Shown here: positions 1,859-27,632 of the stretch, piece after piece
Layout of the letters: each line of letters starts with the position of its first letter
Numbering within the stretch: the stretch's first letter is position 1
NCBI GenBank assembly: GCA_918797485.1
Contig: CAKKNE010000004.1
Span: forward strand, 5,084,001 to 5,148,000
DNA: 64,000 bases
From: Pelagomonas calceolata
Taxonomy: Eukaryota; Sar; Pelagophyceae; Pelagomonadales; Pelagomonadaceae
Direction: 5' to 3'
The notes under the pieces: model-generated
The model's database searches: none
What the model was told of the DNA's origin: nothing
The model's input: the letters and a program-made list of their open reading frames with translations, nothing else
Made by a program: the position numbers and the translations under genes

Positions 1859-3912
1859 CTAGGCGTACTGCATGCGCGGGTTCGGCAGCACGGAGATTGA
1901 GAGCGGGATGACCTGCCTGCAGTTGGGACACGTCGCCGATTCGCCGACGCGGTCGCCCTCCGTAGACAACCGCTGCGCGGCCGCCAGCCAGTCCGAAAGA
2001 CACCGCGCGTGGAGGGTCGTACCGCAGCACGCCATCACCTTCGTGTTTTCCAACGCCAAGAGCTCGAGGCAGCAGACGCACACGTCGTCCGGCGCGACGG
2101 TCAACACCCTCGCGGGCGACGGCCGCGTCAAGCCGCCGTCGTCGGCCTCGTCGTCGTCGTCGTCGTCGGACCCGAGCATTTCCCAGGTAGTAGGCGTCGC
2201 CTCGGGCGGCGGAGGCGGCTCCGGCGCCGCCGGTGCGCCGCGCGGGCCGCCGCGAACGACCTCCCGAGGTCGCTCCGCGTCGCACGCCTGGCAGACCGTC
2301 GTGCCGGGCGCGTTCACGAGCGTGCACCGGTCGCAGGTCCACGACGTGGGTGACGGTGGCGCGCGCGCGGGCGGCGGCGGCGCCGTCGGCGCGGGCGCGG
2401 GCGGCGGCGGCGCGGTCGCGGCGTGCTCGCTCAGGAGCGGCTGCGGCGGCCGCGCGCCGGGCAAGCGGCGGCAGCTCAGGTACCGCACCGCGCCGTCGGC
2501 GTATTCTTCCGCGCGGAGCCCGTAGAGCGCCGCGACCTCGGCGGCGCGGGTCGAGTCGGCCCGCGTCGCGCGCGCCGGCAGCGGCACCTCGCCGTCCGCC
2601 TCGCAGCACCGCGCCAGCTTCCGCTCCAACGCGCGCAACGCGCCGCCGCCCCCGGCCAAACCGTCGACGTGGGTCGCGAGCGTCCGCTGCGCCCAGAGGA
2701 CCTGTGTATGAATCAACATTTCACGGCCTTCGACTCACCGGTTGATTTTTCGCACGGCAGAGGACCAGCGCCGGCGGCCACGCGACCGTTTGCGCGGCGC
2801 GCTGTCGATCGACGCCGAACGCGTCCGCGAGGCGCCGGTTCCGCGCGAGCAGGCGGTCGTTCGTCGACGGCGCGGCCCGGGGCCGCGGCCTGTGCGGAAA
2901 TCAAAATTTTACGGCGCGTTCGTGCTGAATCATCGCGTCGTCCTCCACGCCATCGACGCGACGCCGGCTCGACGGCGTGGCGATGCCGGCTCCTCGCCGC
3001 TCGACCGAGCCAGGACGGCCGCGCCATCGCCGAGAAACGACTTAGTGCACCCGACGCACTGGTTGATTTCCACACAGGCCGCGGCGGCGCCGAAAAAAGC
3101 CCGCGCGGGGCGGCTTGGGCGCGGCGCGCCCAGAAGGCGGCGTCGTCCCGGCGCCGCGTCGCGCTCTCCAGGACCGGGTACGACTCGGCGCTGTCCGGCG
3201 GCGGCGGCCGCGGCGCCGCGCTCGGCGCCGCCTCCTGGAAGACGCCGACGTCCGCATCCTCGACCACCAGACCGCCGCCGCCCCGTTCCGCCCGCCGCGC
3301 CGCGTCCTCCGCCAAGCGCACCTGCCGCGCGCCCAGGCTCTCCGCGTCGCCCCCGAACAAGGCGGCGAGGACGCGGCGCGACTCGGCCCGCAGCCTCTCG
3401 GACTGGAGCCTCCGTTGCGCGTCGTCGTCGCGCGAGAGGTCCAACGCGCGCGCCACGGTCGCGTCCTTCGCGCGGCCGTGCTTCTCGAGGTGCGCGTCCA
3501 ACGAGGCGCACGTCTCCCGCCGCAGCGGCCGCCGCGTGAGCGGATTCGCGAAGACGTTCGAGGAGACCAGGTACGCCGCGAGCACGCGCGCGTCGAAGAG
3601 CATCTTGTGGCCGTCCTCGTCGATCTCGAAGGGCTCGACGCGCAGCCGGTTGAGCGGCTCCAACGAAATGGGGTCCGTCTCCGACGCCGCGAGCTCGCGC
3701 CACCACTGGCCTTTGCGCGTCGGCGCGGCCTCGCGCCACCACCGCGTCACCTCGGCTTTCGCTTTTTGGGCGTCGCCGCCCTTTGCGAGCGCCACCAGCG
3801 CGGCGTCGGGCACGTGCGCGGGAGCGATCCGGCGCAGCGCCGCGATCGCCGCGGGCGGCACCGTCCCGCCCCGCTTCTGCGCCCCGCGTTTTTGCGCAGT
3901 TTTTGCGGCCAT
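1859..3912 (-). CDS. U-box-like / R3H-like / RanBP2 zinc finger / RING protein, probable E3 ubiquitin ligase
   Basis: Exons 3912-3086, 2889-2766 and 2701-1859 join to 1,794 nt (597 residues). Both introns are introner elements, and removing them restores one frame. Residues about 74-127 contain ETDPISLEPL and FANPLTRRPL, which resemble the fold of a U-box. Residues about 340-375 look like an R3H nucleic-acid-binding domain, although the expected His is Glu. Residues about 435-465 form a RanBP2-type finger (WTCDRCTLVN, then TVCQACD). The C-terminus has a RING-like CVCCLELL...CCGTTLHARCLSDWL...CPNCR. Two ubiquitin-transfer-type domains with an RNA-binding-type domain between them is an unusual order. 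I read it as an E3 ligase; its substrate is unknown. ATG 3912 is preferred to an upstream non-ATG extension. It shares a divergent promoter with symplekin. Confidence 0.75.
2702..2757 (-). mobile_element. introner element A (56 bp, minimal copy)
   Basis: On the minus strand the element starts CCGTGCGAAAAATCAACC and ends GTTGATTCATACACAG, degenerate terminal inverted repeats of the same family as the other seven copies. It is flanked by perfect 8-bp duplications GTCCTCTG at 2758-2765 and 2694-2701 (plus-strand coordinates). The upstream duplicate supplies the GT donor and the element supplies the AG acceptor, so the intron is 2702-2765 (64 bp) and excision is exact. Almost the whole interior has been lost. 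Confidence 0.85.
2890..3077 (-). mobile_element. introner element B (188 bp, subfamily 1)
   Basis: Terminal repeats are CTGTGTGGAAATCAACC at the sense 5' end and TTTGATTTCCGCACAG at the 3' end. The perfect 8-bp target duplication GCCGCGGC lies on both sides and is itself palindromic. The intron is 2890-3085 and uses a GC donor from the duplicate with the AG of the element. Using the GT inside the terminal repeat would leave 10 extra nt and shift the frame. The interior has CACGCCATCGA-type inverted motifs shared with elements D and F. Confidence 0.93.
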
Positions 3913-4298
3913 GAAAAAATCTATGCGCTGTGGAGCAAGCACAGGGTTCACAGGTTGCCTCCGCAAAGGCGAAAGGTGCAAGCACTTGCGCTGGCAGCGG
4001 GCCGGGCGATTGGTTATCTGTAGCAGACCCCCAAAGGCTGTCAGGCGTTGACAATCAGCACAGCCGCGCGCGAAGCGGTTCGCGCGGCGTGAAACTTGTG
4101 TTATGTGTGTTTCTAGGGTAGATAGACGTCCGCCTCCCAGGTCCTGCCACAGCTAGCGCCGTAAGGCACTAGCATCACCGGCGCTTTTGCGACGCAGCCT
4201 TGGACAGCCCAAATTCTTGTCGCTGGGTTAACTTGCCAGCCCAGAACGCTTTGTCTAGCCAGCCACCGCGCGGGGGCGTATTGACGGGCCGAGCAATA
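3913..4298. promoter_or_regulatory. divergent promoter between the RING gene and symplekin
   Basis: The 386-bp spacer separates two outward-facing start codons. ATTGG at 4009-4013 is a CCAAT box in minus orientation, about 100 bp upstream of the RING-gene ATG. No TATA box is obvious on either side. GC is lower than in the flanking coding DNA. Confidence 0.5.
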
Positions 4299-7200
4299 AT
4301 GGAGGCCGTCTACCGCCAGGCGCGGGCGGTCCTCGACAAGGCCGCCGCCGCGACGAACAAGGACCAAAAGACCGCGCAGATCTCGCTCCTCGTGGAGCTC
4401 TGCGCGTACCGCGGCGACAGCGCCCTGGTGGCGGAGGTGGTCGAGGGCGTCGCGGGCTACGCGGCCGACCGCTCGGCGAAGGTGCGCAAGGCCGTCGTCG
4501 AGTTCGTGGACGCGGTCGTCGCCAGGGGGAAGTTGCAAGTCACGGACGAGTGCGCGTCGACGGCGCTCGCCACGTGCTGCGTGCTCGCCGTCGACGAGAA
4601 CGAGCCGGTCGCCGCGGCGGCGCTCCGCGGCGCCGCGAGGCTGCTGGGCGACGAGCGGTTCGCGGCCGCGACCGTCGACGACGCCAGTCGCGAGCGCTTG
4701 CGCAACGCGGTCGACCCGTCGCACCGCCGGACCGCGACGGGCAGGGACGACGCGGTCCAGTCCGACGCGCACCGGGACGCGGCGCTCGCCGCCGTCGTGG
4801 CGCTGCTCGTCCGGGACGCGGCGGCCGACGGAAAGCGGCCCTCGAAGGCGACGAAGGCCGACGCCGCGGCGCTGGCGGCCCGCGCGGAGACGGGCGACGC
4901 GGCGGCCCTCGACGCGGCGGCCGCGGCGCTCGGGCGGCAGTTCGCCAAGTGCCACCGCGAGCTCGTGGCGGCCATCCTGGCGGCCCTCGAGAAGGACTCG
5001 TCGCACAGCCGCGCGGCGTGCCGGGCCCTCCACGCCGCGGAGCTGGAGCGGACGCGGTCGTCGACGGGCGCGGCGCCGCGCGGACGTCGACCGGGGGCCG
5101 CGCGGGGGGCGTCGCGCGTCCCGGGGACGCGGCGAGACGCCCCGGCGCCCGCGCAGGCGCGATCGCCGCGGCCGCCAACAAGTTGGAAGCGGCGCTTCGA
5201 CGCGAAAAGCTCGGCGGGGCCGCCGACGACGCGCTGCGGCGCGCGCGGCAGGGCCAGCCCTTCGAGAGCGAGGAGCCCCCGGCGAAGAAGCGGCGGCGGG
5301 ACCCGCGGACGCGCCGGGAGCGCAAGCTCAGCATCGACTACGACGACGTGGGCGACGACGCCATGGAGGTCGAGGAGGAGGACCTCGAGATGCCGCCGCC
5401 CGCGGAGCCCCCCAAGGACGACCGCGCGCTGTCCGCGCAGGCGGCGGGGCGGCTCGTGGCGGGCGCGCGGGGCCCCCGGGCGGCGGCGGCCCCCGTCCCC
5501 GACGCGCACCGGGCCCGGCTGCGCGAGGGCGCGGCGGCGCGCTGCCTCGCCGCGCCGGCCGAGACCGTCGCCGGCGAGAAGCGGTTCGAGACGCGGGACG
5601 CGATCGTCGCGCGCCTCGCGCGCGGCGAGGCCTGCGACCAGCCGGAGGGCGTGGCGCGCGTCCTGCGCCGGGCCGTGGCCGACAAGAAGAGCCGGCGGGA
5701 CGGCCTGGAGCTCGGGCTGCGGGTGCTGTTCGAACTCTACGCGCGCGAGAAGCGCGGCGCGGCCCGCGACGCGTACGACCGCTGCCTGCTGGCGCTCCTC
5801 GGGGCGCTCCGGGACGGGCTGGACGCGGAGGAGCGCAAGCTCCTCGCGGAGGCGGCCCTGGGCGCCCCCCGGCTCCCGGACGCGGCGATCGCGTTCCTCG
5901 GGGACCTGTGCGAGTCGCCGGACCACGTGGCGCTCGGGCTGGGCGCGCTGCGGGACGTGGCCACGCGGCGCCCGGCGGCGCGGGACCGGTGCCTGCGGCG
6001 CGCGCTGGAGCTGACGCGGCGGCCGGACGTCGCGCCCGAGGTGCGGGAGAAGGCCGTCCGCCTGGCGACGAACCAGCTGTGGCCCAACGCGGCGCTGCGG
6101 GAGACGGTCGTGGCCTTCGCGCGCGCGCGGCTCGAGACGGCCGCGCGCGAGGGGCCCGAGGGCCGCGCCGGCGACGGCGGCGACGCGCTGGCGGCGGCGC
6201 GCCGGGAGCTCGCGCTGGTCGTCGCGCTGTGCGTCAAGGACGCGTCGCTCGTGCCGGACGTCGTGCGGGCCGCGGCGGCGACCGCCGACGCGCCCGACGA
6301 CGCGCGGCGCGCCACGACGCGCCAGGCCTGCGAGGCGGAGCTCCCCAAACTGGCGCCAGCCCTCGCCACGGTCCACGGCGCCAAGCCGACGCTCGAGCAC
6401 GCCGCCGACGCGCTCGGGGGCGACCTGTCGCCCCGGCGGCGCGACGCGACCGAGGCGCTCCTGCGGTCGCTGGTGGCCGCGCTCGCGACCGGGCGCGGCG
6501 CGCGCGCGCCCCAGCTCTGGGAGGGCGCCGTCGCCGTGCGCGCGCGGGCGCGGCGGGAGCGGGGCAGCGCCGAGGAGGACGACGGGGTGGAGTTCCTGAC
6601 GCCCGCGCTCGGCGCGGCGACGGCCGCGGAGGTCGAGGCGGCGCTGCCGTCCCTGCTGCGGCGGCTCGACGACGCGCAGCTCGGCGCGGCGTTCCGGCGC
6701 GCGGTGCAGACGCACGCCGCGCGCGCGCGGCGTCCCGACGCGCGCGCGCTTTTTTTTTGTTTTTCCCCGCCGGTCCGCGACGCGCCGCCCGGTCCGCGCG
6801 CAGGCCAAGGCGTCGAAGTCGACCACGGACCTGGGGGCCGCGGACCTCCTGGTGAAGCTGCACCGCGTCCCGGCGGGCGCCGTGCCCGTCAAGCGCCTGA
6901 ACGAGGCGCTCAACGTCTGCCTGAGCCTGCGCGACGTGTTCGGGCCGCTGGCGCTCCGGGACGCGCTGGACCGCATGACGCCGCCGCAGGGCTCGGGCGC
7001 CGAGGGGCTCGCGGGCGTGCCGAAGGCGTTCCTGCGGACGTGCATCCTGGCCGTCAAGACGCACCCGGCGCAGCTCGCCGGGCCGGTCGCGCGGCGCGTG
7101 CTCCCGCGGCTGGTCGACGTGGGCGTCTGGCGCGACGCGGACCTGTGGAAGGGCTTCCTCATGTACTGCAAGATCCTGGGCGCCGGCGCGGGCGCCGGCG

Positions 7201-7370
7201 ACGACGCGTGCTTCGCCGCGGCGCTCATGCTGCCCGCGCCGCAGCTGCAGAAGCTCCTGGCGTTCGCGCCCAAGCTGAAGCTGCCGCTGAAGCGGCACGC
7301 GGAGAAGCTCGTCAAGGCGCGCGACACGGACGGGGTGGTGGCGGGGTGCCTTAAGTTGCTCGGGCTTTGA
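4299..7370 (+). CDS. SYMPK: symplekin (Pta1-like) scaffold of the mRNA 3'-end processing machinery
   Basis: Symplekin holds together the CPSF/CstF cleavage-polyadenylation complex and histone pre-mRNA processing factors in the nucleus. The N-terminus (from MEAVYRQARAVLDKAA) is a HEAT-like helical repeat region. The C-terminus matches the conserved symplekin C domain: LLVKLHRV, ALNVCLSLRDVF, FLRTCILAVKTHP, VWRDADLWKGFLMYC and LPAPQLQKLLAFAPKLKLPL. Three frames are used. My model joins 4299-5085, 5157-6703 and 6804-7370 (2,901 nt, 966 residues). The second intron (GT at 6704, AG at 6803, with a T-rich tract near 6750) is well supported by homology across the junction. The first intron is supported by the frame change, but its donor is uncertain. 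Neither intron has introner ends, so these are ordinary spliceosomal introns. Confidence 0.88.
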
Positions 7371-7947
7371 CGTTCAGAGTGTGTAGGCTGGGCAGGCGAG
7401 GACCTGCGCGGCGGGATTGGTCCCGGGGATTCGGTCGCGTACCCGTCGGAGCGTTCCCGCGCCTAACAAGAGCGGTGCGCGCGGTATCGTTTTTGCCGCC
7501 CGTAAATCACTACTCACGCGTCACGAGTAGAGCGATCCTAGTCCGAGCGCACCTCTGGGTACCGCCGCCGACACACGCGCGGCCTACAGAACTCGAAGCC
7601 CTGCGCGGCCGTGGATAGGCGGAGACGCTTTTGGCTAGTGTCTCTCTCACGCTACATACTGCAACCCGCGACCGGGAGCGGTCCTCGATCGGTACGGCCT
7701 GATGGCAGGCGTCGGAAGGCGTCTCGCGGAGGCCGGGTTGCAAGATGGTTGATCATCGAGGAGCAGCCAGAGCACCCAGATCTTAAGCGTCGACACCACC
7801 AGCACTCTGCGCGGACAGTTTTGCTCTCCAACCAGCGCGCGCGCTGTCTTCGATACGCTTACAGAGTGAATCCCACGCCGCGCGGCGGCCTCCAGTGCCA
7901 CACAGAGCTAAGACAGAGGCTCAGACGGCGGCCTCTCAGTGCCAGAG
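7371..7947. other. intergenic, 577 bp, no gene recognised
   Basis: It holds the 3' region of symplekin and the promoter of the next gene. CTACTC and GAGTAG around 7510-7530 form a small hairpin. I looked for tRNA and snRNA features and found none convincing. Confidence 0.4.
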
Positions 7948-8457
7948 ATGGACTCCCCGCTCTCGCCCGCAGCCCGCGTCGCAGCACGAGTAGTGTTCGC
8001 CGGCCTGCCGCCGGCCTGGCTCTCGACCTTTGACAGCAGCTCGTCGCTCGACGACGACGACGACGACGACGAGGCGCTCGACGGCTACGACGAGGACCCG
8101 TTCGACGCCGACCCGCGGCGGGCGCGACGGCAGTACCAGTTCTACGCGCGGCGGCGCAGCGCGCGGCTCTCCACGTACAAGGAGTGGGTCGGCGCCGTCC
8201 GGCGCGCGAGCCGCGAGCGAGCCGCCCGCGAGGCCGCCCGCGAGGCCGCGCCGCTCCAGCGCTGGCGCCTGCCACCGCCCCGACGGCTCCGGTACCGGTC
8301 GGGGCAGAACGCCTTCACGGCGTTCAGCTGCCTGGCGGTCGCGATGGGTCTCGCGGGGGCGCCGTACGACCCCTTCGAGGAACGCTACCCGGACCGCAAG
8401 CACAGAGAAGCGTCCTGGCAGAAGCTCGCCGCGCGCTACGTGTCGCCGGTCCTCTGA
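7948..8457 (+). CDS. small acidic/basic hypothetical protein
   Basis: Predicted 169 residues from ATG 7948; a GTG nine bases upstream is also in frame. A run of seven Asp near residue 32 is followed by basic helices rich in Arg and Ala (about residues 50-105), then a moderately hydrophobic C-terminal third containing GQNAFTAFSCLAVAMGLAGA. No family is recognised. The GC-rich third positions and the absence of a better gene here favour coding. It is convergent with the helicase gene. The antisense strand is also open, so coding is likely but not certain. Confidence 0.5.
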   Translation: MDSPLSPAARVAARVVFAGLPPAWLSTFDSSSSLDDDDDDDEALDGYDEDPFDADPRRARRQYQFYARRRSARLSTYKEWVGAVRRASRERAAREAAREAAPLQRWRLPPPRRLRYRSGQNAFTAFSCLAVAMGLAGAPYDPFEERYPDRKHREASWQKLAARYVSPVL

Positions 8458-8749
8458 AAAACTCCGTGCGCCGCGCGATGCGGCACACGCTTCTCCTCTT
8501 TCCTCACGCGCCGCGCCCCGAAAGGCGCGCCGCCGTCTCCGCCGCTGCTCGCAAACCACCATCCCTTGTCTCCTTATGTTAAGAATTTATGATACTATGG
8601 GAGCCATCTGTGCCAGCCCGAGTCACTGGCACACCGCGAACGTCACCGCGACGACGACCGAGCATCACTGGCAAGCTACGTTAGAAAGATTAGGTATATA
8701 CGAACGAGCCCTCCCCCCTCTCCGGCCGGGGAGCGGAAGCACCACACTC
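8458..8749. terminator. convergent 3' region with a hairpin
   Basis: The 292-bp spacer lies between two convergent stops. GTGCCAG and CTGGCAC at 8610-8632 form a 7-bp-arm inverted repeat with a 9-nt loop. The arms resemble those of the hairpin at 1786-1802, which is also in a convergent spacer. No function is demonstrated. Confidence 0.35.
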
Positions 8750-15652: not shown

Positions 15653-17466
15653 TTACGTCTTCACATCCACCGCGGCGAAGTCGTCGTCGAAGAACCTCGG
15701 CTCGTCGATAAACGGCGTGCTCGGCGTGCGCCGCTTTCGGCAGAGCCGCGCGGTCACGAGCCCTAGCAGGGCGGCCGAGCCGATCGCGACGCCCGCAAAG
15801 CCGGCCGACACGGACGCGTCGTCCGGCGCGTCGTCCTGCGCGTCGTCCGGCGCGGGTCGTGGGGGTGCTGCCGCTGAAACCATCGACGAAGGACTCGTCG
15901 GCGCTCGCGTCGCCGGGACGTGCGCCGTCGGCGCGCGCGTCGGAGCCGGCGTCGGAGCAGGCGTCGGAGCCGGCGTCGGCGCGGGCGTCGGAGCCGGCGT
16001 CGGAGCAGGCGTCGGCGAAGGATACGCGAGCCGCGGGTCCGGCTCGGGCTCCGCGGGCGCGCGCGCGATGCGGGCGAGAGCGAGCACCGCCGCCCCGACG
16101 TAGTCGTTTTTTCGCGCTTTGAGGGGCTCGAGGTCGAAGTAGTAGTCGCGGGCCTTGATGGACGAGCCGCGACTCGACGAAGCCAGGCCGCGAGCCTCGA
16201 CGTACTCGGGAAGGGCAAGGGCGGCCCGGGACAAAGGCTCCTCGAGGTGTTTGGGCAGGCCGCCCCTGTTGTAAAGCCCCGCGAGCGCCGCTATGATCAA
16301 GGAGCTGCCCGAGGTCTCGATCTGCGCGGAAATCAAATGTCGCAGCGCGTCTCCTCCCACGGCCCAATCATGGGTGGCGGTCTCGATTCCTCACCGCTCG
16401 ACGGAGCCAGCACGGCCGCGTCATCGCCGCGAAATGACTTCGTGAAGAATTATTGGGTGCACGCGACGCACTGGTTCATGTCCACACAGGTCTCGACGTA
16501 GTTCCTCTCGTCGTTGGGCGCGTCGAGGACTTGCCACCAGAGGCCGCTCTCGGGGTCTTGAAACGCGACGACCTTGTCCAGGTACTCCACGAGCGTCGCG
16601 TGCGCCTGTCGACAGGCGTCCGGCGGCGCCGCGCCGCGGGCGTCCAGGCGCAGGAGCGCCCCGAGTGCCAGTTCCAACCCGGCCGCGGCCCAGCCGCACG
16701 CCCGCGACCAGCGGGCCTCCGACGCGACTTCTTCGTCCAAATCAAATCCGTGGCTCAAGTTCCCGAACACGGCGAGGAACCCCTGGGTGACGTTCGCCAG
16801 GGTCGTCGCGATGGCCACGGCGTCGCGGGGCTCGACGTCGTGGTGTTCGACCAGGGCCGCCGCGTTCAGCACGCCCATGAACACGTCGTCCGACCAGGCG
16901 ACCCGGTGCGAGTCCCTCGCATAGTCGTCGTTCCAGCCCGCGCCGCCGCCGCTGCCTTCCGATGTCCGTACCGACGTCCGTTGCCGGTAGAAGGAGGCGC
17001 CGCCACGCGGGAGCGCCGTAACGAAGCCTCGCTCAGCGTCTCCGCCCATGGACGCGTCGGGCACGAGCTGGTAACCGAGCACGATCGAGCGCGCTCGGTC
17101 CAGGTCCACCGTGGCGTCGAACAGCGGCGGGACCAGCAGCGCCGCCGCGGCCGATAGCTTGTCGCCGAGGCTCTCCCCCACGAACGAGGCGTAGTCCTCG
17201 CCGCCGCCGCCGCCTCTCAAAAACTCGAGGACCGCGCCGTCGCCGGCGGCGTACGACGTGCCCTGCAGGCTCGCCGCGTCGGCCCCGGCCTCGCCGAGCG
17301 CCCAGACGCACAGCGCGCCCTCGTAGTTTGGCTCTTCAGAGAGGAGGTCTTCGACGGCGCGCGACGCCTGCAGCGTGGCGAGGGCTGCCCTGGCCTTCGC
17401 GAGGGTCGCGTTAGGTATTGCTGCTTGCACGCCGGCAAGCAGCCACAGGGCGGCTCGCAGCAGCAT
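15653..17466 (-). CDS. GH105/GH88-like unsaturated uronyl hydrolase with C-terminal membrane anchor
   Basis: Exons 17466-16498 and 16321-15653 give 1,638 nt (545 residues) after removal of introner C. Residues 1-16 are a signal peptide. The alpha/alpha-barrel has motifs of Pfam Glyco_hydro_88: WSDDVFMG, RWSRACGWAAAGLELAL (about residue 252), GLWWQVLD (about 304), then, only after splicing, NYIETSGSSLI, where family members have a Glu-x-Ser/Thr motif. GH105 enzymes hydrate and cleave unsaturated rhamnogalacturonyl or related uronyl disaccharides from polysaccharide lyase products. The enzyme domain is followed by a T-P-A-P repeat linker and a hydrophobic segment (about 492-510) with a basic cytoplasmic tail. 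This suggests it is displayed outside the cell or in the endomembrane lumen. The substrate is unproven. Confidence 0.8.
15940..16017 (-). repeat. TPAP coding minisatellite in the GH105-like gene
   Basis: 12-bp units alternate between encoding TPAP and closely related PTPA registers, forming a rigid extracellular stalk between the catalytic domain and the membrane anchor. The near identity of the units suggests length polymorphism. Confidence 0.8.
16322..16489 (-). mobile_element. introner element C (168 bp, subfamily 1)
   Basis: Sense ends are CTGTGTGGACATGAACCAG and CATTTGATTTCCGCGCAG. Target duplications are GTCGAGAC (donor side) and ATCGAGAC (exon side), 7 of 8 identical. The intron is 16322-16497 with GT-AG ends. 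The interior matches element B for most of its length (GTGCGTCG, GGCGATGACGCGGCCGT, GAGCGGTGAGGA). Confidence 0.93.
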
Positions 17467-17529: not shown

Positions 17530-17640
17530 ACGAAGCGCTGGGTCCATACTACCTGGGCCACTGGTCCTGGGGGTGGGCACAATAAGCTACTCTCTCTCTC
17601 CCCCGATGCATAGGAGCAGTTATTGTGAACAACCTGCAAC

Positions 17641-19060
17641 TTACACAACAACTCGCCGCCGCGGCGCCTCAGACGTCTCCGCGGCGGAGGATGCGTTCCA
17701 GCCGCGCCGCGCGCGCGGGCAGCCCACCGGCCGCGCCGTCGGCCGCCAGCCCAGGGCCTCCAGGACGAGGGTCAGTTCGTCGTACAACAGGCCGTGGAAG
17801 TGCATCGCGTCGCCGGGCAGGTTCTCCTCGCAGCGGCCGTCCGTGAGCGCGAACGCGTCGACGACGTCGACGTCGGGCAGGGCCGAGCGCAGCCGCGCGT
17901 TCAGCGCCGCCGACGCGTCCCGCCCGCGCAGCCCCGCCGCGCAGTGGCGCGCGGCGTCGACGTCGCCGAAGCGGTCGCGGAGCCACGCCGCGCAGCCCGC
18001 CGACGCGGCCACGCGGCCCCGCCGCCGCGCCTCGTCCGCGACCCGCCGGAAGTCGCGCGTGAAGGCGGCGTCGCACTGCGAGTGCGTCGTCGACGCCACG
18101 ACGGTCGCGCCCGGCGCGTCGCGCGCGTACTGCCCCGCGGCCCGCCGCAGCGCGGCCTCGTAGCCGACGAAGCCGGCGTACGACGTCCACGCCGCCGGCG
18201 CCGGGGCGAACGGCGTCGGCCACTGCAGCCACAGGCCCGCACCTACGTGGCAATCAAATTTCGGGCGCCCCACGCCATCGACGCGACGTCGTCTCCGTAG
18301 CTGCGTCTGCTCGATGGCGCGGAGGCTTCACGCCGTCGACGCGACGTCGTCCCCGCGACCGCAGCGGCTCGATGGCGTGGAGGCTCACGAAGGTCTCCGC
18401 AATAGTTCTCAGGACAGCCGAAGTCACCGCTTGATTTCCACGCAGGCCCGCGCCGAAGACGACGGCGTCGACCGGCCCGCCCAGCGCGCCCGCCGCCCGG
18501 CCGACGGCCCGGGGGTCGACGTCCGTGCTCCCGGCGTACGCGGCCGCGACGTCGGGCCTCAGCAGCAGGGACCCGGCGCAGCCACACTCGCGCGTCGCGC
18601 GAAAGGCGGCCTCCTCGGCGCAGCCGCACTCGCCGCGACGCCGCCTCGCGCGCGCCGCCGGCGCGGCGAGGCGCCCCGCGCACGTCGCCACGGGCTGCGC
18701 GCCCTGGTCGTCGCCGCGCTGCCGCACGTTCATCGCGAGGCACAGCGCGTGGAACAGGTTCCGCATCGTGCTGTCGCCGACGAAAACGACGCCAAACGGG
18801 CGGCGCCGAGCCCGCCGCGGCGGCCGCGCGGCCCGAAAGCGGCCCTCGAAGCGGCAGAGGCCCTCCCGCAGGAGCGGCATGCTCGCGAGCATCTCGTCGT
18901 TGACCAGGAAGCGCGGCTTGCGCGCGCGCGGGTTGCCCTCCCAGTGGCGGCGCAGCGCGTGTCGCGCGCGCTCCGACAACGCCGCGACGTCGGCCTCGAG
19001 GAAGAGCTCGGCCCGGCCGGCGGCGCCGAGTAGGACCGCCGCGAGAGATTGGAGGAGCAT
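17641..19060 (-). CDS. PC-esterase/TBL-like SGNH-fold protein, secreted
   Basis: Exons 19060-18454 and 18242-17641 give 1,209 nt (402 residues) once introner D is removed. A hydrophobic N-terminus (MLLQSLAAVLLGAAGRA) looks like a signal peptide. GVVFVGDSTMRNLFHALC (residues about 88-105) has the Gly-Asp-Ser nucleophile motif of SGNH hydrolases in the form seen in PC-esterase and trichome-birefringence-like acyltransferases. GDAMHFHGLLYDEL (about 345) fits the C-terminal Asp-x-x-His motif. VVFGAGLWLQWP is created at the splice junction. The family adds or removes O-acetyl groups on polysaccharides or glycoproteins. A role in surface glycan modification is plausible beside the GH105-like gene, but the substrate is unknown. 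Confidence 0.7.
18243..18445 (-). mobile_element. introner element D (203 bp, subfamily 2)
   Basis: Sense ends are CTGCGTGGAAATCAAG and AATTTGATTGCCACGTAG. Duplications GCGCGGGC and GTGCGGGC differ at one position. The intron is 18243-18453 with a GC donor. The interior is strongly similar to element F, with repeated CACGCCATCGAG and its inverse, and GCAGACGCAGCTACGGA. Confidence 0.93.
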
Positions 19061-19144
19061 GTTTGCTGTGCCTTCCGCTTAATCTGACCTTGAGGCGCAG
19101 GACTGTAGTTTGCTGTGCCTTCCGCTTAATCTGACCTTGAGGCG
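19061..19144. repeat. 37-bp perfect direct repeat upstream of the SGNH gene
   Basis: Copies at 19061-19097 and 19108-19144 are identical and 10 bp apart. The first copy abuts the ATG at 19060, so the duplication lies in the leader or core promoter. Confidence 0.9.
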
Positions 19145-19420: not shown

Positions 19421-20665
19421 ATGCGCCGCGTCCCGGACGCCTACGAGGAGAACGTCGCGCCAGGGTCCACTCCGCGCAAGCAACAGACGCGCACGCAAAC
19501 GCCGGCCACGATCCTCCATCCGACTCAACAGCTGTCCCAGCCGCTCGCGCCGGCCACGATCCTCCATCCGACCCAGCGAGTTAATACCCCAGACACCGAA
19601 CTGGTGCCGACGCAGCTGGCGCCGACGCAGCCGGCGACGCCGCAGCGCGACCGGGCCGCGCGAGCGCTCTCGTTCGGCGCCGCGACGCCCTTCGTCGCAA
19701 AAAACTCGAGGGAGGGCTCCGCATCCACGCGCCTCTCGTCGGCGACGCCCAGCCCCACGCCGCCTGCGCCGCCGCCCGCCGCCGAGGACGACTTGGCGGC
19801 CTCGCTGAGCGACCGCCTGCGATTCGCGTCGCCCGGGGAAGACGTCACCTCGCCGGCGTCGTCAGAGGAGGAGGAGTCGGGTAGCTGGCTGCCGCGCGCG
19901 AAGCACTCGCCGGTGGTCGCGCCGGAGTCGCCGCCGTCGGCCGCCGCGGAGCCGTTGTTGACCCCGCCGTCGCCGCCGACGCCGTCGCCACGCCCGGCGC
20001 AGCGGCCACCGCGGTCGCTCGCGCGACGGCTGAGGACCCTCGAGCGTTCCGGCTCCGGCGCAGCTGTCGGAGCGCCGCCCCTCGCGAAAGGCCGGATCGC
20101 CAAGGCCGTGGCCGACCTCATCCGCCGCGACGAGGAGGACGCGGGGCCGACGCTAGTGCTCGCCGCGTCTGGACCGGCGGCGGATGAATGGATAGCGGCG
20201 CTGACGCTCGCTCTAGGGCCGCACTGCGACGTCCTCAAGCACGCGACGACTGCCGCGGCCCTCAGGCGCAACACGCCCGCTCGCCTAGCGCGGATGACAT
20301 GCGTCGTCGCCACCTATGCCCAGGCGTCGCGCGCGGACCCGCGGGAGGCGCGGACCGCGCCGGCGTCCGAGTGGCTTTCCTCGGCGCGGCCCGTCGCGCA
20401 AGCGCAGGACTCCGTGCTCCATCGCCTGACCTGGCACAGGGCGGTCTACGACGAAGCCCACTCGTTGCTCGGCACGTCAAAACGAGCTCGAGCGGCGGAG
20501 ACGCTCGACGCAAACTTTTCGTGGGCCGTCTTCGGACCCGTGACATTGGACCAGCTGTCGCGCAAGCCCGCGCAGCTCCGGGCCTTGGCCGCACTCGTCA
20601 AGTATCCTCGCGGGGCGCCCCTCGCGCGGCTCCTCCTCGAGAGGACGGTTCGCCTCGACGACTGA
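19421..20665 (+). CDS. degenerate SNF2/RAD5-like ATPase-lobe protein, probably catalytically dead
   Basis: Predicted 414 residues from ATG 19421; 30 codons upstream are open but start with TTG. Residues 1-220 are disordered, rich in Pro, Ser and Thr, with many Ser/Thr-Pro sites and two ATILHPTQ copies. From about residue 225 the sequence resembles the first ATPase lobe of SNF2-family helicases: TLVLAASGPAADEW (motif Ia position), CVVATYAQAS, and WHRAVYDEAHSLL with a DEAH box followed by a 'SWAVFGP' segment where active enzymes have a TGTP motif. I see no Walker A (GKT) and no second lobe. It could be a pseudo-ATPase scaffold, a gene fragment, or the 5' part of a gene I cannot extend. The reading frame is intact. 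Confidence 0.6.
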   Translation: MRRVPDAYEENVAPGSTPRKQQTRTQTPATILHPTQQLSQPLAPATILHPTQRVNTPDTELVPTQLAPTQPATPQRDRAARALSFGAATPFVAKNSREGSASTRLSSATPSPTPPAPPPAAEDDLAASLSDRLRFASPGEDVTSPASSEEEESGSWLPRAKHSPVVAPESPPSAAAEPLLTPPSPPTPSPRPAQRPPRSLARRLRTLERSGSGAAVGAPPLAKGRIAKAVADLIRRDEEDAGPTLVLAASGPAADEWIAALTLALGPHCDVLKHATTAAALRRNTPARLARMTCVVATYAQASRADPREARTAPASEWLSSARPVAQAQDSVLHRLTWHRAVYDEAHSLLGTSKRARAAETLDANFSWAVFGPVTLDQLSRKPAQLRALAALVKYPRGAPLARLLLERTVRLDD

Positions 20666-20713
20666 TTCTAAGTCTGCGGCGTGTGTGTTCAATCCGGTCA
20701 TCCGCCGCTCTGA

Positions 20714-20866
20714 TACGGTGCTAGGACTAGTGCCCTGGGCTGGGGGGAGACACCATGCGTCGCCGATTCCGCGTCTTTCGTGTCAGTCGATGTTACGGTG
20801 CTAGGACTAGTGGGCGGAGCCCCTGGGGGGGAGACACCGCGCGTCGCCGCGTCTTTCGTAACAGGC
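20714..20866. repeat. imperfect tandem duplication, about 80 bp per unit
   Basis: Unit 1 is 20714-20793 and unit 2 starts at 20794. Both begin TACGGTGCTAGGACTAGTG and end near CGCGTCTTTCGT. Unit 2 carries small deletions. The beginning of unit 2 recurs inverted at 22112-22139. Confidence 0.85.
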
Positions 20867-21057
20867 CCGCGCTAGTAGGTCTTTGATGTAGCCCCACTTT
20901 TTTTTTTGGCTTTTGGCTAATTTCCTCCTAGCTCTTGCTCAGCTTGAACATAGCGCTGAGCTGCTGCGCCTGCGTTTTCCCTGTGTTTTCTCGTCGCGCT
21001 TGTTTGCAAAGCAGAAGAATTCGTCTGCCTGCTTTCACGCGGCCACACATACTCTAC

Positions 21058-21852
21058 ATGGACAAGCCGCTTAGCGCGCCGCGAGGCCCGGACGACGGCG
21101 GCAAAAAGCAGAAGCGGCCGCGCGAGGCGTCATCCGGCCGGGAGGGCGCCGATAAGCGCGGGCGTCGGGACGGCCGGCGGGACGGCGGCCGCCGCGGCGG
21201 GGGCCGCGGCGGCGGGGGTGGGGGGCGCGGCGACGGCCCGCGGCACCGCGGCGGCCGCGGCGGGCGCATCGGCGGCACCGGGCCGCGGCGCGCGCCCGAC
21301 CGCGACACGGTGCGGTTCAGCTACAAGTGGGCGGTCACGCCCGAGAAGCAGCGCGTGCCGACCGGTGCGGAATCAACCAGTGACAGAGGCGCAGTCGCGT
21401 CGCTGCGAGCTCACGGGATGGGACCAGTTCGACCTGACCCGATCAAGAAACGCGGTGCCGGACGACCCGACCATCGTCGACGGCCAAGCCTACGGCTACC
21501 ACGTTTGATTTCCGCGCAGGTGCTGACGGTGCGGGCGTTCGGCGCGGAGCTCATGAAAATCGGCAGCGGCGGCAGCCTCGAGATCTCGTCGGGCGGCTTC
21601 AGGACGTGGAGGACGTTCCAGGCGCTCAACATGGTGCTGGCGCCGGTGGGCCTCGAGCTCGAGGCGGACCCCGAGGGCCGCGGCGCGGGCTACCGCGGCG
21701 GCAAGTGGTCGCTGACGTCGAAGAACGGCTGGACGCTGCCCTTCGAGGACGACATGAAGCTGAGCGCGTTCCCGACGCGCGACTGGAAGCGCATCCTGCC
21801 CCAGCTCGAGAGCCTGCCGGAGGACGTCGAGTTCGTCGTGGCGAAGGACTAG
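21058..21852 (+). CDS. RGG/GR-rich nucleic-acid-binding-type protein
   Basis: Exons 21058-21354 and 21520-21852 give 630 nt (209 residues) after removal of introner E. Residues about 15-85 are basic and then Arg/Gly-rich with RGG, RGGG and GGRGG motifs, which in other proteins bind RNA and are methylated on arginine. From about residue 90 a folded domain follows: TVRFSYKWAVTPEKQR, VLTVRAFGAELMKIG (junction), FQALNMVLAPVGLELE, KWSLTSKNGWTLPFEDD. I do not recognise this domain. The first in-frame ATG is at 21058. The splice junction falls inside the folded domain, so the introner cannot simply be translated; unspliced RNA would insert about 55 codons. Confidence 0.7.
   Translation: MDKPLSAPRGPDDGGKKQKRPREASSGREGADKRGRRDGRRDGGRRGGGRGGGGGGRGDGPRHRGGRGGRIGGTGPRRAPDRDTVRFSYKWAVTPEKQRVPTGAESTSDRGAVASLRAHGMGPVRPDPIKKRGAGRPDHRRRPSLRLPRLISAQVLTVRAFGAELMKIGSGGSLEISSGGFRTWRTFQALNMVLAPVGLELEADPEGRGAGYRGGKWSLTSKNGWTLPFEDDMKLSAFPTRDWKRILPQLESLPEDVEFVVAKD
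21363..21519 (+). mobile_element. introner element E (157 bp, divergent subfamily)
   Basis: Ends are CGGTGCGGAATCAACCAG and CGTTTGATTTCCGCGCAG. Duplications GTGCCGAC and GTGCTGAC match at 7 of 8 positions. The intron is 21355-21519, GT-AG. The interior shares no clear stretch with subfamilies 1 or 2, so only the termini unite it with the others. The whole element is open in the host frame. Confidence 0.88.
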
Positions 21853-22273
21853 CGTGCCGGGTTTTATATTAGGTGCCCAGAGTTGTGCGGCTTCCGTTTT
21901 GCTAATGTCTTACAGTCACTAGCACACTCTTCTGCTACAAGGGGTTCTTAGATGTATACTCCAAGTATATTTAGTGCGCTTAGTGGTGAACCGCAAAGGT
22001 CGCCGCGGCGAGCGACTGAGACGCCGCACCGCTTGTTGGCCGCGCCCTTGGTAGTATATGACTTTCGGCCCATTTTACACCAAAACGGACGCTCACGGTG
22101 GCTCACCCGGGGGGGTTCCGCCCACTAGTCCTGGCACCGCAACAACACTATAAGGTAATGCTTCACTGGGACGGGCCAGGACGACGACTCAGACCCGGGG
22201 AGGGCCCACGAGCTTGTACTAGGAGGACACGACCCCGTATTACGATACGGGTGGGGGGGGGAGGGGCGGGGAC
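21853..22273. other. convergent intergenic region, 421 bp
   Basis: It lies between the RGG gene and the Myb gene. It holds the TGTCTTACAG motif at 21905, a small TATAC/GTATA inverted repeat near 21953 and the inverted copy of the 28-bp repeat at 22112-22139. No gene is seen. Confidence 0.4.
22112..22139 (-). repeat. inverted copy of the 20796-20823 repeat
   Basis: Read on the minus strand this segment starts CGGTGCCAGGACTAGTGGGC and matches 20796-20823 at 26 of 28 positions. The two copies face each other across the RGG-rich gene. Confidence 0.85.
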
Positions 22274-23884
22274 TCAGAGCCAGCGGGCGACGCACACCGG
22301 CGACTCGACGAAGCGCGGCGCCGGCGCCGGCTCGGGGAAGACGTCCATGAGGAAATCGACGTGGCGCTTGCGCACGGCGCCGTCGCGCGGGACGGGCAGG
22401 TCGAACTCGGTCGGCTCGAGCGGCACGGGCGACGCCGGCGCGAGCGTGCGCGAGCCCGGCAGGCAGGCGGGCTCGAGCGCCGGGCAGGGCGGCAGCGGCG
22501 CGGCCGGCGGCGCGTACGCGGCCAGGACCTCGAGCGGCGACGCCTTGCGCTTGATGAGGGAGGCCGGCCGCGGCGGCGGCCGCGCCGCGGCGGGCCGGCA
22601 CGCGGGCGACGCCGAGAAGGGCGACGCGGGCGACACGGGCGTGAGCGAGCGCAGGGACTCGTCGTCGTCGTCGTCGTCGACGGCGAAGGCGGCGCCGTCC
22701 TTGTAGGCGAACTCGGCGAAGGGGCTCGGCGGCCGCGACGCGCCGTCGGTCATGTCCGCGAGCGTCCGCGGCGTGAGGAGTGCGGAGAGCAGCGCCGCCG
22801 CGGCCTCGGCCGACTGGTCGGCCGGCGGCGGCGCCGGGGCCTGGGTGGCGCGGGGCGGTTTCGCGGGCGGCCGTCCCGGCCGCGACGGGCGACGACGCGG
22901 TCGGCGCCGTTCGACGCGAAGGCGCCGCGCGGACGCCGCGGCGCGCCCGGGCGCTGCGGAGCGAGGCGCGGCGCGTCGTCACGCTCGAGCCGCCCCAGGA
23001 CGGCGCGCGGCCGACGGCGCGGCCGCGGGCGGGCGCGGCCGCGCGGCGCGGCGCCGCGGGCCGCGCCGCGCGGCGCTTCGCCGGCGCCGACTTCTTGGCG
23101 CGCGCGGCCTTGCGCTTCTGGGAGTACCTGCGCGCGCGGGGGGGGCGTCGTTTCCTGGTCCGGGCGGCGTTTTGCCGCATCCGTAATCCCGTCCCCGCCC
23201 CGAGATATTCGGCGGCCCGCGATTCGACGACGACGGGCCGTCGAGGTCCCTCGGAGAGGACCAGCGACGCCGCGACCCCGGAGGACTCTGAAACCGTCGT
23301 TGCGGTCGGAATCGACGGACGCGCCCGCGCCCGCGCCCCGCCCGGAACGGGGCTTCCGAAACCCGGCGTTCCCACCAAAAAAGCTCGAATGTCCACGCGC
23401 CGGCACCGCGCCAGTAGTTTTTGACCGCGTTGTCGGTTCTGCCCGGTAGCCTGCGCAAAGGGGGCGCGGAGGTGCGAAAACCGGGGACCGGCCGCGCGGA
23501 GCCGAGGGGCGGGATGAACCTCGAAACGGCGTCGTTTTTCGAAGGGCGCGTGGCTCGCCGTGGACGCGGCGATAACTACCGCTTGGCGATGGTCGCCCAC
23601 TTGTTTCCGACCTCGGCCTGGCTCTCGCGGATGATCCGTTCCTCGGCCTCGGTCCAGGGGCGCGTCGTGATCTTGGGGTCGAGGCTGGCGACCCAGCGCG
23701 CGCGGCACTGCTTGCTGGTCTTGGGGCGCCCCGGGAAGGCGTCGCTCACGTCGCGCGCGACGTCGGTCCACGCCCGCTTGCCGTGACTCGCCACGGCGGC
23801 GCGCACCGCGTCGTCCTCGGCCTCGGTCCAGGATCGCGCGTCGAGGAGGGGCGGCGACGTTCGGCCGGTGCGAGTCGTCGCCAT
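22274..23884 (-). CDS. R2R3 Myb-domain transcription factor
   Basis: The two Myb repeats are clear: RSWTEAEDDAVRAAVASHG...CRARWVASLDP and RPWTEAEERIIRESQAEVGNKWATIAKR, completed after splicing by LPGRTDNAVKNYW. This is the DNA-binding fold of c-Myb/plant R2R3 factors, so the protein should act in the nucleus. My model joins 23884-23580, 23450-23412, 23127-22887 and 22840-22274 (1,152 nt, 383 residues). Intron 1 (GT-AG) is fixed by the Myb consensus. Intron 2 needs a GC donor and gives NYWYSQKRKAARAKK, a typical Myb continuation. Intron 3 (46 bp) is the least certain. The C-terminal half is basic and then Pro/Ala/Ser-rich with an Asp run, a possible activation region. None of the introns has introner ends. 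ATG 24178 is in frame upstream, but that stretch looks like leader. Confidence 0.78.
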
Positions 23885-24240
23885 GTGTTTTGAATTCAAC
23901 GGGAACTTTTTGCGAGGCGCGCGCTGCAAAATGAGAGAGGGCCGGCAGAGAACTTTGACTGAGGGTTTGAGCGCTGGTCGCGCCCTTGCGCGGGCGAAGA
24001 GAAGTAGTTGAGAGGCGAGCTTGTAGCGGCCGCCGAATCGAGAGAGAGAGCCGGGGCGTAAAAAGAGCAGATATGCAAATCTGGGCAAAAAAAACCCGGA
24101 ACCACCGCTCCAAACTGCCTCGAGAGGTCTCGCCTCGTGGGCGCTTATTAAAACGGGGGAAAGGGATTGTCTCCCCATAAAACGCCGCCCGAGTCTAGCG
24201 AAAACCGTGACAACAACAACTTAAAACGAACACAACTCAA
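23885..24240. promoter_or_regulatory. upstream region of the Myb gene
   Basis: 356 bp between the Myb start and the stop of the next minus-strand gene. It has lower GC, an AG-rich tract near 24040 and an A-run near 24087. It is also open in frame with the Myb protein up to ATG 24178. No defined element is recognised. Confidence 0.4.
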
Positions 24241-25594
24241 CTATGCCGGCAGCAGCGGCGACGTCGGCGACGCGGGCGCCCGCAGGTCTGGCCGCTTCGG
24301 CCGCCCCTCCCGCGCCTGGGGCGCCGCCGGCGCGGGCGCCGCTTCCGTGGGCTCGTCGCGCAGGCGCCGCCGCTCGCGCGCGACGCTGGCCCGCCGCGTG
24401 ACCTCGGTGTAGGACACGACGCCGACCATCGCCACGAAAAGACCCAGCAGGTTCTTCGCGTTCGTCTCGAGGCCGAAGACCACGACCGAGAAGCCGATCG
24501 TGGCGATCGTCTTGACGTGGCCCAGCACCTGGTACGTTAGCGGGCTCGTGCGGCCGAGCACGTAGTAGTTCGACACGTTCGCGGCGAGCGCGAGCCCGCA
24601 GGACCTGTGTGGAAATCAAATTTCGGGCGCCCCACGCACGTGCTTTCCGTAGCTGCGTCTGCGCGATGGCGTGGCGATTCCACGCCATCGACGCGACATT
24701 GTCCCCGTGGCCACGTCGGCTCGATGGCGTGGAGGCTCACGAAGTCCACGCAATATTTCTCAGGATAACATAACTCACTGGTTGATTTCCACACAGCGCA
24801 GGACCAGAGGACGTCGCCCCGGAGGTCGGCGGTCCAGTCGAGCGCCGCCAGATGGGCGACGTCGTCGCACAGGGGGGACGCGGCGAGCATCGCCAGGGCG
24901 ATCAGGGGCGACGTGTGGTAGAGCAGCTGGTTCGAGTCGACGCGGAGCCGCCGCTGCGACCTGTGCGCAAACCAACCAGCGAGTCGGGCGCACTCCGCGC
25001 CGCCACAAATTTGATTGGCGCGCTGGTTGCCGACGAGGCGGTGGCGCGCTGCGCGAGCACCGTCGCGACGACCGCGACGGCGCCGTAGAGCGTGCCGAGC
25101 GGCGTCACGGTGTGGTCGTGGACCTCGGCGACGTAGAGCCCGCCCACGAGGGGCACGAGCGTCGCCAGCGTCGCGCCGTCCGGGAACCGGTCGCCCGCCA
25201 GGTACTGCGTCGCCAACGTGCAGGGGATGCAGGCCAGCTTGGTCATCTGGAAGAAGCCCACCGAGTTCTGCTTGAGGTTCAGGTTCATGAAGGCCATGGC
25301 CAGAAGGCTGGCGCCGGCGACGCGGACCACCGTCCGCCGTTCGCAGGCCTTGTACGCGAAGACGCCGCACCGCAGCATGACCCGCATGCCCGCGGCGGTG
25401 AAGGCCATCTGGCAGCTCGTGAGAAAGATAATGTGGTCGAACCGGTGCTGCGCCACGAGCCATTTGTTGACCAGCACCACGGCGCAGCTCGACAGCAGGT
25501 TCGCGAAGACCGCGAGCATGAGCGGCACGCGCAGCGCCGTGCCGAAGACGCCCGTGCGCTTGCGGTTTTCGTCGAGCCAGGCGCGCGGACGCAT
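24241..25594 (-). CDS. SLC35E/TPT-family nucleotide-sugar or sugar-phosphate transporter
   Basis: Exons 25594-25035, 24960-24805 and 24604-24241 give 1,080 nt (359 residues); both introns are introners (G and F). The protein is a multi-span membrane protein of the drug/metabolite transporter superfamily. It has LLSSCAVVLVNKWLV in the first helix, QMAFTAAGMRVML, NLNLKQNSVGFFQMTKL, LVPLVGGLYVAEVHD, SNQLLYHTSPLIALAML and, across the second junction, LAANVSNYYVLGRTSPLTYQVLGHVKT. The last motif is typical of SLC35E3-like and plant triose-phosphate-translocator-like carriers. Such proteins exchange nucleotide sugars or phosphorylated sugars across Golgi, ER or plastid membranes; no plastid-type leader is evident, so Golgi/ER is more likely. 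ATG 25594 is the first in-frame ATG. Confidence 0.85.
24605..24796 (-). mobile_element. introner element F (192 bp, subfamily 2)
   Basis: Sense ends are CTGTGTGGAAATCAACC and TTTGATTTCCACACAG, 15 of 15 complementary at the tips. The 8-bp duplications GTCCTGCG are identical. The intron is 24605-24804, GT-AG. It is the least degraded copy of its subfamily here and so probably the youngest. Confidence 0.95.
24961..25034 (-). mobile_element. introner element G (about 66 bp, short, reversed, old)
   Basis: The whole 74-bp intron is GTCGGCAA plus the element and ends GCGCACAG. Read on the plus strand the element runs CTGTGCGCAAACCAACCAG...AATTTGATTGGCGCG and aligns with subfamily 1 (GAGTCGGGCGCAC, CGCGCCG). 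It is therefore inserted in the opposite orientation to B, C and H relative to transcription. The target duplication has decayed to GTCGGCAA against GTCGCAGC. Confidence 0.8.
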
Positions 25595-25620
25595 CGTTTG
25601 AGGCGCGCGCAAGACGACGG

Positions 25621-25693
25621 CTCTCCTTCGCAGCGGCGCCGCGCCGCCGGGTGCTTTTCGACGCCTCTCCTTCGCAGCGGCGCCGCGCCGCCG
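25621..25693. repeat. 29-bp perfect direct repeat upstream of the transporter gene
   Basis: Copies at 25621-25649 and 25665-25693 are identical (CTCTCCTTCGCAGCGGCGCC and the following nine bases), with a 44-bp period. They lie 27 bp or more upstream of the ATG at 25594. Confidence 0.9.
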
Positions 25694-26093
25694 ACAAGTG
25701 CTTTTACAGTACGCCCTTGCTTTCAGCAGCAGGGGTCCTGCCTAGCGAGGATTCTCGCTAATTTCGAGCACATTCAAGTAGGGGACAGAGCAGGCTGCAA
25801 GGCTAGGCCTTGTCCGTACTAACATGCGGTCTTAGCTATGCATCGTGCCTGCTAAAAAAATAAATTTTGCTCTAAATCGGCTAATTCCGGGTTTTTCCGG
25901 GTTTTCTAACATGAAACCAGTCATTTTTCCATTGCTACGGCCCGCGCAAGGGGTGCCCCGAGAGTGCTCACTCGTCCACCTGGCGATTTTTGGGGAGCCC
26001 GCCACGGGAGCCAACACGATGATTTGAGCACGCTACGTGGCCTCGTCACATATAGACGGAAGACTGTCAAACGTGGTGTATCGCCCAGGGCCT

Positions 26094-26099
26094 CACGTG
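26094..26099. promoter_or_regulatory. G-box CACGTG
   Basis: The palindrome lies 60 bp upstream of the sigma-factor ATG. G-boxes are bound by bZIP/bHLH factors and often confer light response in photosynthetic eukaryotes. Function here is inferred from position only. Confidence 0.4.
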
Positions 26100-26158
26100 C
26101 GCAACGCGGAAACAAGAGCTCGCGACCGCTCTATCAAGTTGGCTGACTAAGACACAGC

Positions 26159-27632
26159 ATGTCGACGAAGAAGACGCCGGCGCTGCGCAGCGCCTGGGCT
26201 CTGATGCTCGTCGTGCCGCTCGCCGCCCTCGTGCCGCCGGGCCGGCCGCCGCGCACGACGAAGCTCGACGCCGCGACGCTCGCGCGCCGCCGCGAGCGGC
26301 GCGAGGCGCTCAAACCGCTGCTGACGTGGCCCGAGGAGCAGCGCCTCGGCCGCGAGTGCCGGCGGCTCGCGGCCCTCGAGGACGTCCGCGCCCGGGAGGG
26401 CGCGCGGCTGCGGCGCGCGCCCACGCGCGGGGAGTGGGCCGCGGCCGCCAACTACTCGAGCGAGGCCGCGCTGCGGGCGGACCGCGCGCGCATGCGCGCG
26501 TGCCGCGACGAGCTCATCGCGCGGAACCTGCGCCTGGTGCTCAGCGTCGCGGGCCGGTACAAGCCGCAGCCCGGCCTCGAGTTCGACGACCTCGTCGCCG
26601 AGGGGAACTTCGGGCTGGCCAAGGCGGCGGCGCGCTTCGACCCCGGGCGGGGCTTCCGCTTCTCGACGTACGCGGTCTGGTGGATCCGGCAGGCGATCTC
26701 GCACGCCGTCGGCCACGACGCGCGCGCGATCCGCCTGCCGGCGCACGTGCACGACAAGCTGCGGCCTGCGTGGAAATCAACCAGTGCGTCGGGTGCACCC
26801 GACAATTCTTCACTACGTCGTTCCTCGGCGACGACGCGGCCGTCCTGAACGCGCCGTAAAATTTTGATTTCCACACAGGCTGCGGCGCATGCGGCGCCTG
26901 CGCGAGGAGTACCGCGAGGCCCACGGGCGCGACCCCGACGACCGGCACGTCGCGGCCGCGCTGGGCATTGATCACACAAAGGTCCGCGCGCTCGGGCGCG
27001 CGGCGCGCGAGGTGGCGTCGCTCGACGCGAGCGCCCTGCTGCGGGGCGGCCCGCGCAAGGGCTCGGGCGCGGCGGAGCGCTTCGCGCCGCGCGCGGCGGA
27101 CCTGCTCGCCGACGAGACGCAGGCGCCCGAGCGGCACGCGGACGCGGCGCTCGCGCGCGACGCGCTGGCCCAGGTGCTCGCCGAGGGCCTCGGGGCCCGC
27201 GAGCGCGACGTCGTCGCGGCGCGCTTCGGGCTGGACGGGCGGCCGCCCAGGAACCTGGCGCAGATCGGCGCGGCCTACGGCCTGACGCGCGAGCGCATCC
27301 GGCAGATCGAGCGCGCCGCGCTCTACAAGCTGCGCATGCCGCACCGCGCGCGCAAGCTGGCGCCGCACGCCGACCTGCCCGCGGCGCCGCGGCGCCGCGC
27401 GCCCGCGGCGCCGGGGCCGCCGGCCGCGGTCGCGCGCTGCGCCTGCCGCGACGTAGCCGTCGGCGACCGCCTCGTCGCGGCCGACGACGCGGGCCGCGCA
27501 TGCGTCGTCCGCCAAATCAAGAAGGGCGGCTGGCTCGTCGTGAGCTGGGAGGACGAGCCGGGGCGAGCGTTCGCGCGGCCGTCGGCGTTCCGCCTGCCCG
27601 ACCGCAAGGCCGCGCCCGGCGGGGAGTCGTAA
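26159..27632 (+). CDS. plastid RNA polymerase sigma-70 factor, nucleus-encoded, with C-terminal extension
   Basis: Exons 26159-26757 and 26879-27632 give 1,353 nt (450 residues) after removal of introner H. Region 2 is complete (NLRLVLSVAGRYKPQPGLEFDDLVAEGNFGLAKAAARFD, then RFSTYAVWWIRQAI, about residues 123-180). Region 3 is restored only by splicing (VHDKLRRMRRLREEY). Region 4 has the helix-turn-helix LAQIGAAYGLTRERIRQIERAALYKLR (about 325-354). The N-terminus is hydrophobic (SAWALMLVVPLAALVPPG), as expected of the signal part of a bipartite plastid leader in complex plastids, but the usual Phe after the cleavage site is not seen. After region 4 come a Pro/Ala linker and a 60-residue beta-rich tail (VGDRLVAADDAG, CVVRQIKKGGWLVVSWEDEPG), which bacterial sigma factors lack. 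Role: promoter recognition by the plastid-encoded polymerase. Confidence 0.88.
26766..26878 (+). mobile_element. introner element H (113 bp, subfamily 1)
   Basis: Ends are CTGCGTGGAAATCAACCAG and TTTTGATTTCCACACAG. The 8-bp duplications GCTGCGGC (26758-26765 and 26879-26886) are identical. The intron 26758-26878 uses the duplicate's GC as donor and restores LRRMRRLR of sigma region 3 exactly. The sequence is an internally deleted relative of element B: both ends and GACGCGGCCGTCCTG match, and the middle third is missing. Confidence 0.95.

Follow-up and report, generated by a model that had tools for sequence, protein, structure and literature searches.

Eight short insertions that interrupt six genes of the alga Pelagomonas calceolata belong to a family of roughly 1,850 elements, about one per 17.5 kb of the genome. 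We conclude, with a probability of about 95%, that these elements are introners, that is, short nonautonomous MITE-like DNA transposons (203 bp at full length) that duplicate 8 bp of target sequence and are spliced as introns. The elements share one structure, their removal restores reading frames, their target sites are biased toward GY (GT or GC) on the sense strand, and they are enriched in coding sequence. Coding sequence and comparison with homologues indicate that they are probably removed by splicing. The eight insertions lie in a stretch of 64,000 nucleotides (here called the window; contig 4, positions 5,084,001 to 5,148,000) from an assembly of 32,445,274 bp in 8 contigs.

A preliminary description of the window had listed eight insertions with common terminal inverted repeats (TIRs), and the eight start positions and the final end (26878) all proved correct (Table 1). 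The repeat CTGYGYGGAAATCAA has 16 matches in the window at up to 3 mismatches, compared with 1.8 expected, and none of 100 shuffles reached 16. Inverted terminal repeats are indeed present in all the elements, but those of the elements at 2702 and 24961 are clearly degenerate. The 8-bp duplicates reported for seven elements were recovered; they are identical at 2702, 2890, 24605, and 26766, whereas those at 16322, 18243, and 21363 differ at a single base. In the eighth element (24961-25025), the duplicate has decayed to 9 versus 8 bp (GTCGGCAAC versus GTCGCAGC in gene orientation). Every upstream duplicate was also said to start with GT or GC. This is true in all eight cases on the gene's strand, and only when read so, because six of the elements sit in minus-strand genes; the start is GT in five elements and GC in three (2890, 18243, and 26766). 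The downstream TIR had been described as ending in AG, and we found CAG at the acceptor end of all eight elements. Element 24961 is inverted relative to the other seven. The local density, eight in 24 kb, exceeds the genome mean, and the cluster was not picked beforehand. A de novo search of the window for other TIR/duplication pairs returned mostly GC-rich noise.

Table 1. Introners of the window and the genes that they interrupt (coordinates are those of the window)
Feature	Position	Strand	Intron	Details
Introner	2702-2757	-	Intron 2 of gene A, 2702..2765	56 bp + 8-bp duplicate; degenerate TIRs; donor GTCCTCTG, acceptor CAG
Introner	2890-3077	-	Intron 1 of gene A, 2890..3085	188 bp + duplicate GCCGCGGC; GC-AG intron
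Introner	16322-16489	-	Gene B intron, 16322..16497	168 bp; donor copy GTCGAGAC, exon copy ATCGAGAC
Introner	18243-18445	-	Gene C intron, 18243..18453	203 bp (full-length size); donor GCGCGGGC
Introner	21363-21519	+	Gene D intron, 21355..21519	157 bp + duplicate GTGCCGAC
Introner	24605-24796	-	Intron 2 of gene E, 24605..24804	192 bp; donor GTCCTGCG
Introner	24961-25025	-	Intron 1 of gene E, 24961..25034	65 bp; decayed 9-vs-8-bp duplicate, donor GTCGGCAAC
Introner	26766-26878	+	Gene F intron, 26758..26878	113 bp + duplicate GCTGCGGC; GC-AG intron
Gene A	1859..3912	-		597 aa without its two introners; scores just below the Pfam cutoff for both a RanBP zinc finger and a RING-like domain
Gene B	15653..17466	-		545 aa; glycosyl hydrolase family 88 (GH88)
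Gene C	17641..19060	-		402 aa; no Pfam family
Gene D	21058..21852	+		209 aa; no Pfam family
Gene E	24241..25594	-		359 aa; triose-phosphate transporter family (PF03151)
Gene F	26159..27632	+		450 aa; sigma-70 factor

Removal of each element together with one duplicate was claimed to restore a continuous frame, and it does so, yielding six uninterrupted genes. The insert in gene D has a length that is a multiple of three and contains no stop codon; hence, frame alone is no proof of splicing in that gene. Alignment with homologues was gap-free over the introner junction for gene B, compared with YteR, and for gene F, compared with bacterial SigA; the sigma factor encoded by gene F is probably targeted to the plastid. 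A paralogue of gene E on contig 1 consists of a single uninterrupted frame, and its alignment with gene E is gap-free at both junctions.

Two other features of the window were recorded. An uninterrupted 11,962-aa frame occupies positions 27886-63774 of the minus strand; a scan of two 5,000-aa pieces of its product identified several fibronectin type III domains, and no introner occurs across its 36 kb of coding sequence. Imperfect tandem repeats (GGACACGAGCGGCGACGCG...) lie at 578-1000, within a reading frame at 472-1722.

Further copies with the same ends, on which the preliminary description had made its introner reading depend, are abundant. The exact TIR occurs 1,786 times in the genome (901 + 885), and the reversed pattern, used as a control, does not occur. 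At up to 2 mismatches there are 1,966 + 1,901 matches and 163 for the control, for a net total of about 3,700 ends and hence the element number given above. Full-length loci from contig 1 gave a consensus of 203 bp, or 211 bp with one duplicate, from which full-length copies diverge by 2 to 10%. This consensus is predicted to fold into a strong whole-element hairpin (-95.8 kcal/mol; z, -5.2), in which a terminal stem of 15 bp, formed by the terminal repeats, would place the two splice sites close to each other. According to the main text of the genome paper for strain RCC100 (PMC9481584), the assembly comprises 32.4 Mb in six nuclear contigs plus one contig each for the plastid and the mitochondrion, and there are 0.45 introns per gene; the authors linked a peak in intron length near 210 bp to the introners of Aureococcus. 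The 211 bp of element plus duplicate fits this peak and, set against the published intron number, the elements would make up roughly a quarter of all introns.

To avoid circularity, we collected elements for a frame test by their TIRs only. The sample consisted of 58 paired elements from contig 1 and the eight in the window, for a total of 66. Another 17 exact TIR ends on contig 1 had no recognizable partner or duplicate and were excluded; some of these may be decayed copies, and others could mark longer elements. We called the frame on each side and, for the 58, the gene strand by means of codon statistics that had been trained on the window's own genes; these calls neither used the duplicate nor assumed removal of the element. 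After removal of the element and one duplicate, the frames joined in 63 of 66 cases (33% expected by chance), with an insert length that is a multiple of three in only 13 (53 were not). At random sites (20 stretches on six contigs), codon frames were continuous in 73.6% of cases, which would correspond to a coding share of about 63% if continuity is assumed to be 97% at coding and 33% at noncoding sites. Frames joined at 56 of the 58 contig 1 elements, significantly more often than at random sites (P = 8e-6), and the copies therefore lie in coding sequence more often than its share of the genome would predict. The two duplicates differed at no more than one base in 48 of 58 copies, compared with 2% after shuffling of left and right duplicates; the share of 48/58 is somewhat inflated, since the pairing of elements had favored matching duplicates. 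The check by TIR and 8-bp duplication that the preliminary description had proposed came out in favor of its reading: nearly all copies sampled by TIR show the duplication, a GY on the sense strand, and restoration of the frame. One could still regard the elements as ordinary MITEs that inserted at random and came to lie in or near overpredicted reading frames by chance, given that the TIR, the 8-bp duplication, the deletion derivatives, and the internal hairpin are all typical of MITEs. Randomly placed MITEs would not account for frames that join in 63 of 66 copies rather than in 74% (random sites) or 33% (chance), or for a GY that is strand specific, and we consider this explanation extremely improbable.

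The strand specificity is seen at the target duplicate. On the sense side, the duplicate started with GY in 63 of 66 elements, whereas the background frequency in these genes is 17%, and where GY was present at one side only, that side was the gene-strand side in 44 elements and the other side in 3. We then asked the same of the 1,786 exact ends, with no use of gene calls. GY was present at the far end of the duplicate in 1,114 cases, RC at the near end in 1,152, and both in 556; the combination is rarer than the 718 expected under independence, and at least one of the two was present in 95.7%. Assuming equal numbers of both orientations, these counts solve to a GY frequency of 0.94 (0.92 to 0.96) at one side and 0.33 (0.30 to 0.37) at the other, and the former agrees with the sense-strand share in the sample. 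The antisense-side value is higher than the background of 0.18, indicating a mild, symmetric preference for G-Y-N4-R-C targets. A palindromic target preference as the only source of GY was rejected, since GY and RC are negatively associated genome-wide. When scaled to the antisense side, with GT set to 1, retention was about 0.14 for GC and 0.006 for other dinucleotides, values that rest on small counts (43, 13, and 2 against 5, 11, and 42). The elements are oriented 40 versus 20 relative to the gene (P = 0.013 for bias), with the GY bias in both orientations. We also looked for stronger decay of the donor-side than of the acceptor-side TIR and did not see it (18 versus 16).

These data bear on where the donor lies. 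In a different arrangement, the donor would be inside the element, at the GT in positions 5 and 6 of CTGTGTGG, and the mRNA would gain 12 bases (4 from the element and 8 from the duplicate), or four amino acids. This GT is in place in 53 of 58 copies, the same geometry is shown for an Aureococcus sp. introner family in Fig. 2F of PMC9860276, and the frame test is unable to exclude it because 12 extra bases keep the frame. However, an internal donor gives no reason why GY should stand on the sense side in 94% of cases genome-wide or change sides with the gene strand (44 to 3). It would also lengthen the sigma factor and GH88 by four residues each, in conserved regions whose alignments with solved homologues are free of gaps. 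Aureococcus sp. family 4 in PMC9860276, which adds 12 bp, does not fit the Pelagomonas elements. We therefore regard an internal donor as very improbable.

A second question is whether the bias reflects the loss of unspliceable insertions or the choice of target by the transposase, for example through coupling to transcription. Some intrinsic preference exists, as antisense-side GY is about twice the background (0.33 versus 0.18). However, the TIR is the same at both ends, and the bias tracks the gene strand and not the orientation of the element, being present in both the 40 and the 20. Moreover, GT is retained far more than GC even though GC is twice as common in coding sequence, a pattern expected from the preference of the spliceosome. 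Target choice as the source of sense-strand GY thus appears unlikely.

The introner reading suggests how each insertion would become an intron. A transposase would move the element by cut-and-paste transposition, with G-Y-N4-R-C targets mildly and symmetrically preferred. As the element carries one repeat at both ends, the outward-read copy, TTGATTTCCACACAG, stands at the right-hand end in either orientation and would supply the acceptor CAG. The same repeat would also provide a putative YTRAY-like branch site, TTGAT, and a short pyrimidine run. The donor would come from the target rather than from the element, with GT, or more rarely GC, at the start of the upstream duplicate; the second duplicate would stay in the exon, so that the mRNA would be unchanged. 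Insertions lacking sense-strand GY presumably could not be spliced; copies of this kind are nearly absent, and selection against them is the most likely cause. The 15-bp stem formed by the terminal repeats counts against this scheme, as it would bury the proposed branch site.

We searched the genome for a source of mobility using Pfam domains and found no autonomous partner or transposase with introner ends. Searches with MULE and Merlin/IS1595 domains gave no match, nor did those with KDZ/Zisupton and P-element-like domains, for which control genomes were likewise silent. The hAT dimerization domain identified one single-copy element, with ends unlike the introner TIR, and was also silent in the control genomes. 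Since the controls were silent for KDZ, P-element-like, and hAT domains, absence of those families is not proven. The 8-bp duplication is a feature that hAT transposons have in common with the introners, and the G-Y-N4-R-C preference resembles the targets of hAT and P elements. The hAT TIR consensus begins with YARNG; the introner TIR begins with CTGYG and thus departs from it, and the sole hAT copy found has a TIR (CAGGGCAGCAG) unlike that of the introners. In this hAT element (L032:3550-7200; contig 4, 4499549-4503199), the 8-bp duplicate (TTGCTCGC) and the 20-bp TIRs (CAGGGCAGCAGAAGGGCAAG) are both perfect; the element contains a reading frame of 721 aa and is flanked by inverted, diverged copies of one coding segment (L032:2900-3060 and 7700-7850). 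Two introner-TIR-like ends at this locus (L032 2972 and 7776) belong to the inverted duplicated segment and were set aside. Among viral contigs, end P had no match and end Q had one chance match, without a partner, in an AT-rich contig. A fuller reading, which we offer tentatively as possible, is that the element makes introns in either orientation and persists almost only at sense-strand GY; that the genome is a direct readout of selection on donor quality (GT, 1; GC, ~0.14; other, <0.01); and that the transposase which spread the elements is gone or of an unrecognized type.

The introners of Aureococcus anophagefferens, a member of the same algal class, are reportedly DNA transposons with TIRs and direct repeats in the 2016 account by Huff, Zilberman, and Roy; the duplicate is said to provide one splice site and the element the other, with a size of about 210 bp. 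The TIRs, the duplicate-borne splice site, and the size are shared with Pelagomonas; the Pelagomonas count, in contrast, was made blind to gene annotation. The preliminary description had recognized this pelagophyte architecture, and the TIRs, the 8-bp duplication, the 63 of 66 copies with sense GY, and the 63 of 66 with joined frames support assignment of the elements to the introners of this type.

The elements also match the type in Fig. 2B of Gozashti et al. 2022 (PMC9860276), in which the donor is co-opted from the duplicate and the acceptor lies on the element, and a raised share of GC donors is found in some families there, as here. The Symbiodinium example in that study has 4-bp duplicates, compared with 8 bp here, and Pelagomonas does not appear by name in its text. 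Introners are already known in pelagophytes, and their presence in P. calceolata is indicated by its genome paper (PMC9481584), the main text of which does not give the element sequence, TIR, duplication, or strand analysis reported here. What we add is an annotation-blind census, a sense-strand requirement for the donor with an estimate of its strength, and enrichment in coding sequence relative to a matched random-site control.

How spliceosomal introns originate is an old question, and in this abundant ocean alga about 1,850 introns are visible as transposon insertions. The strand-specific target bias separates what the transposon contributes from what selection keeps. A count of the ends needs no gene annotation and so permits a direct estimate of how strongly selection acts on new introns.
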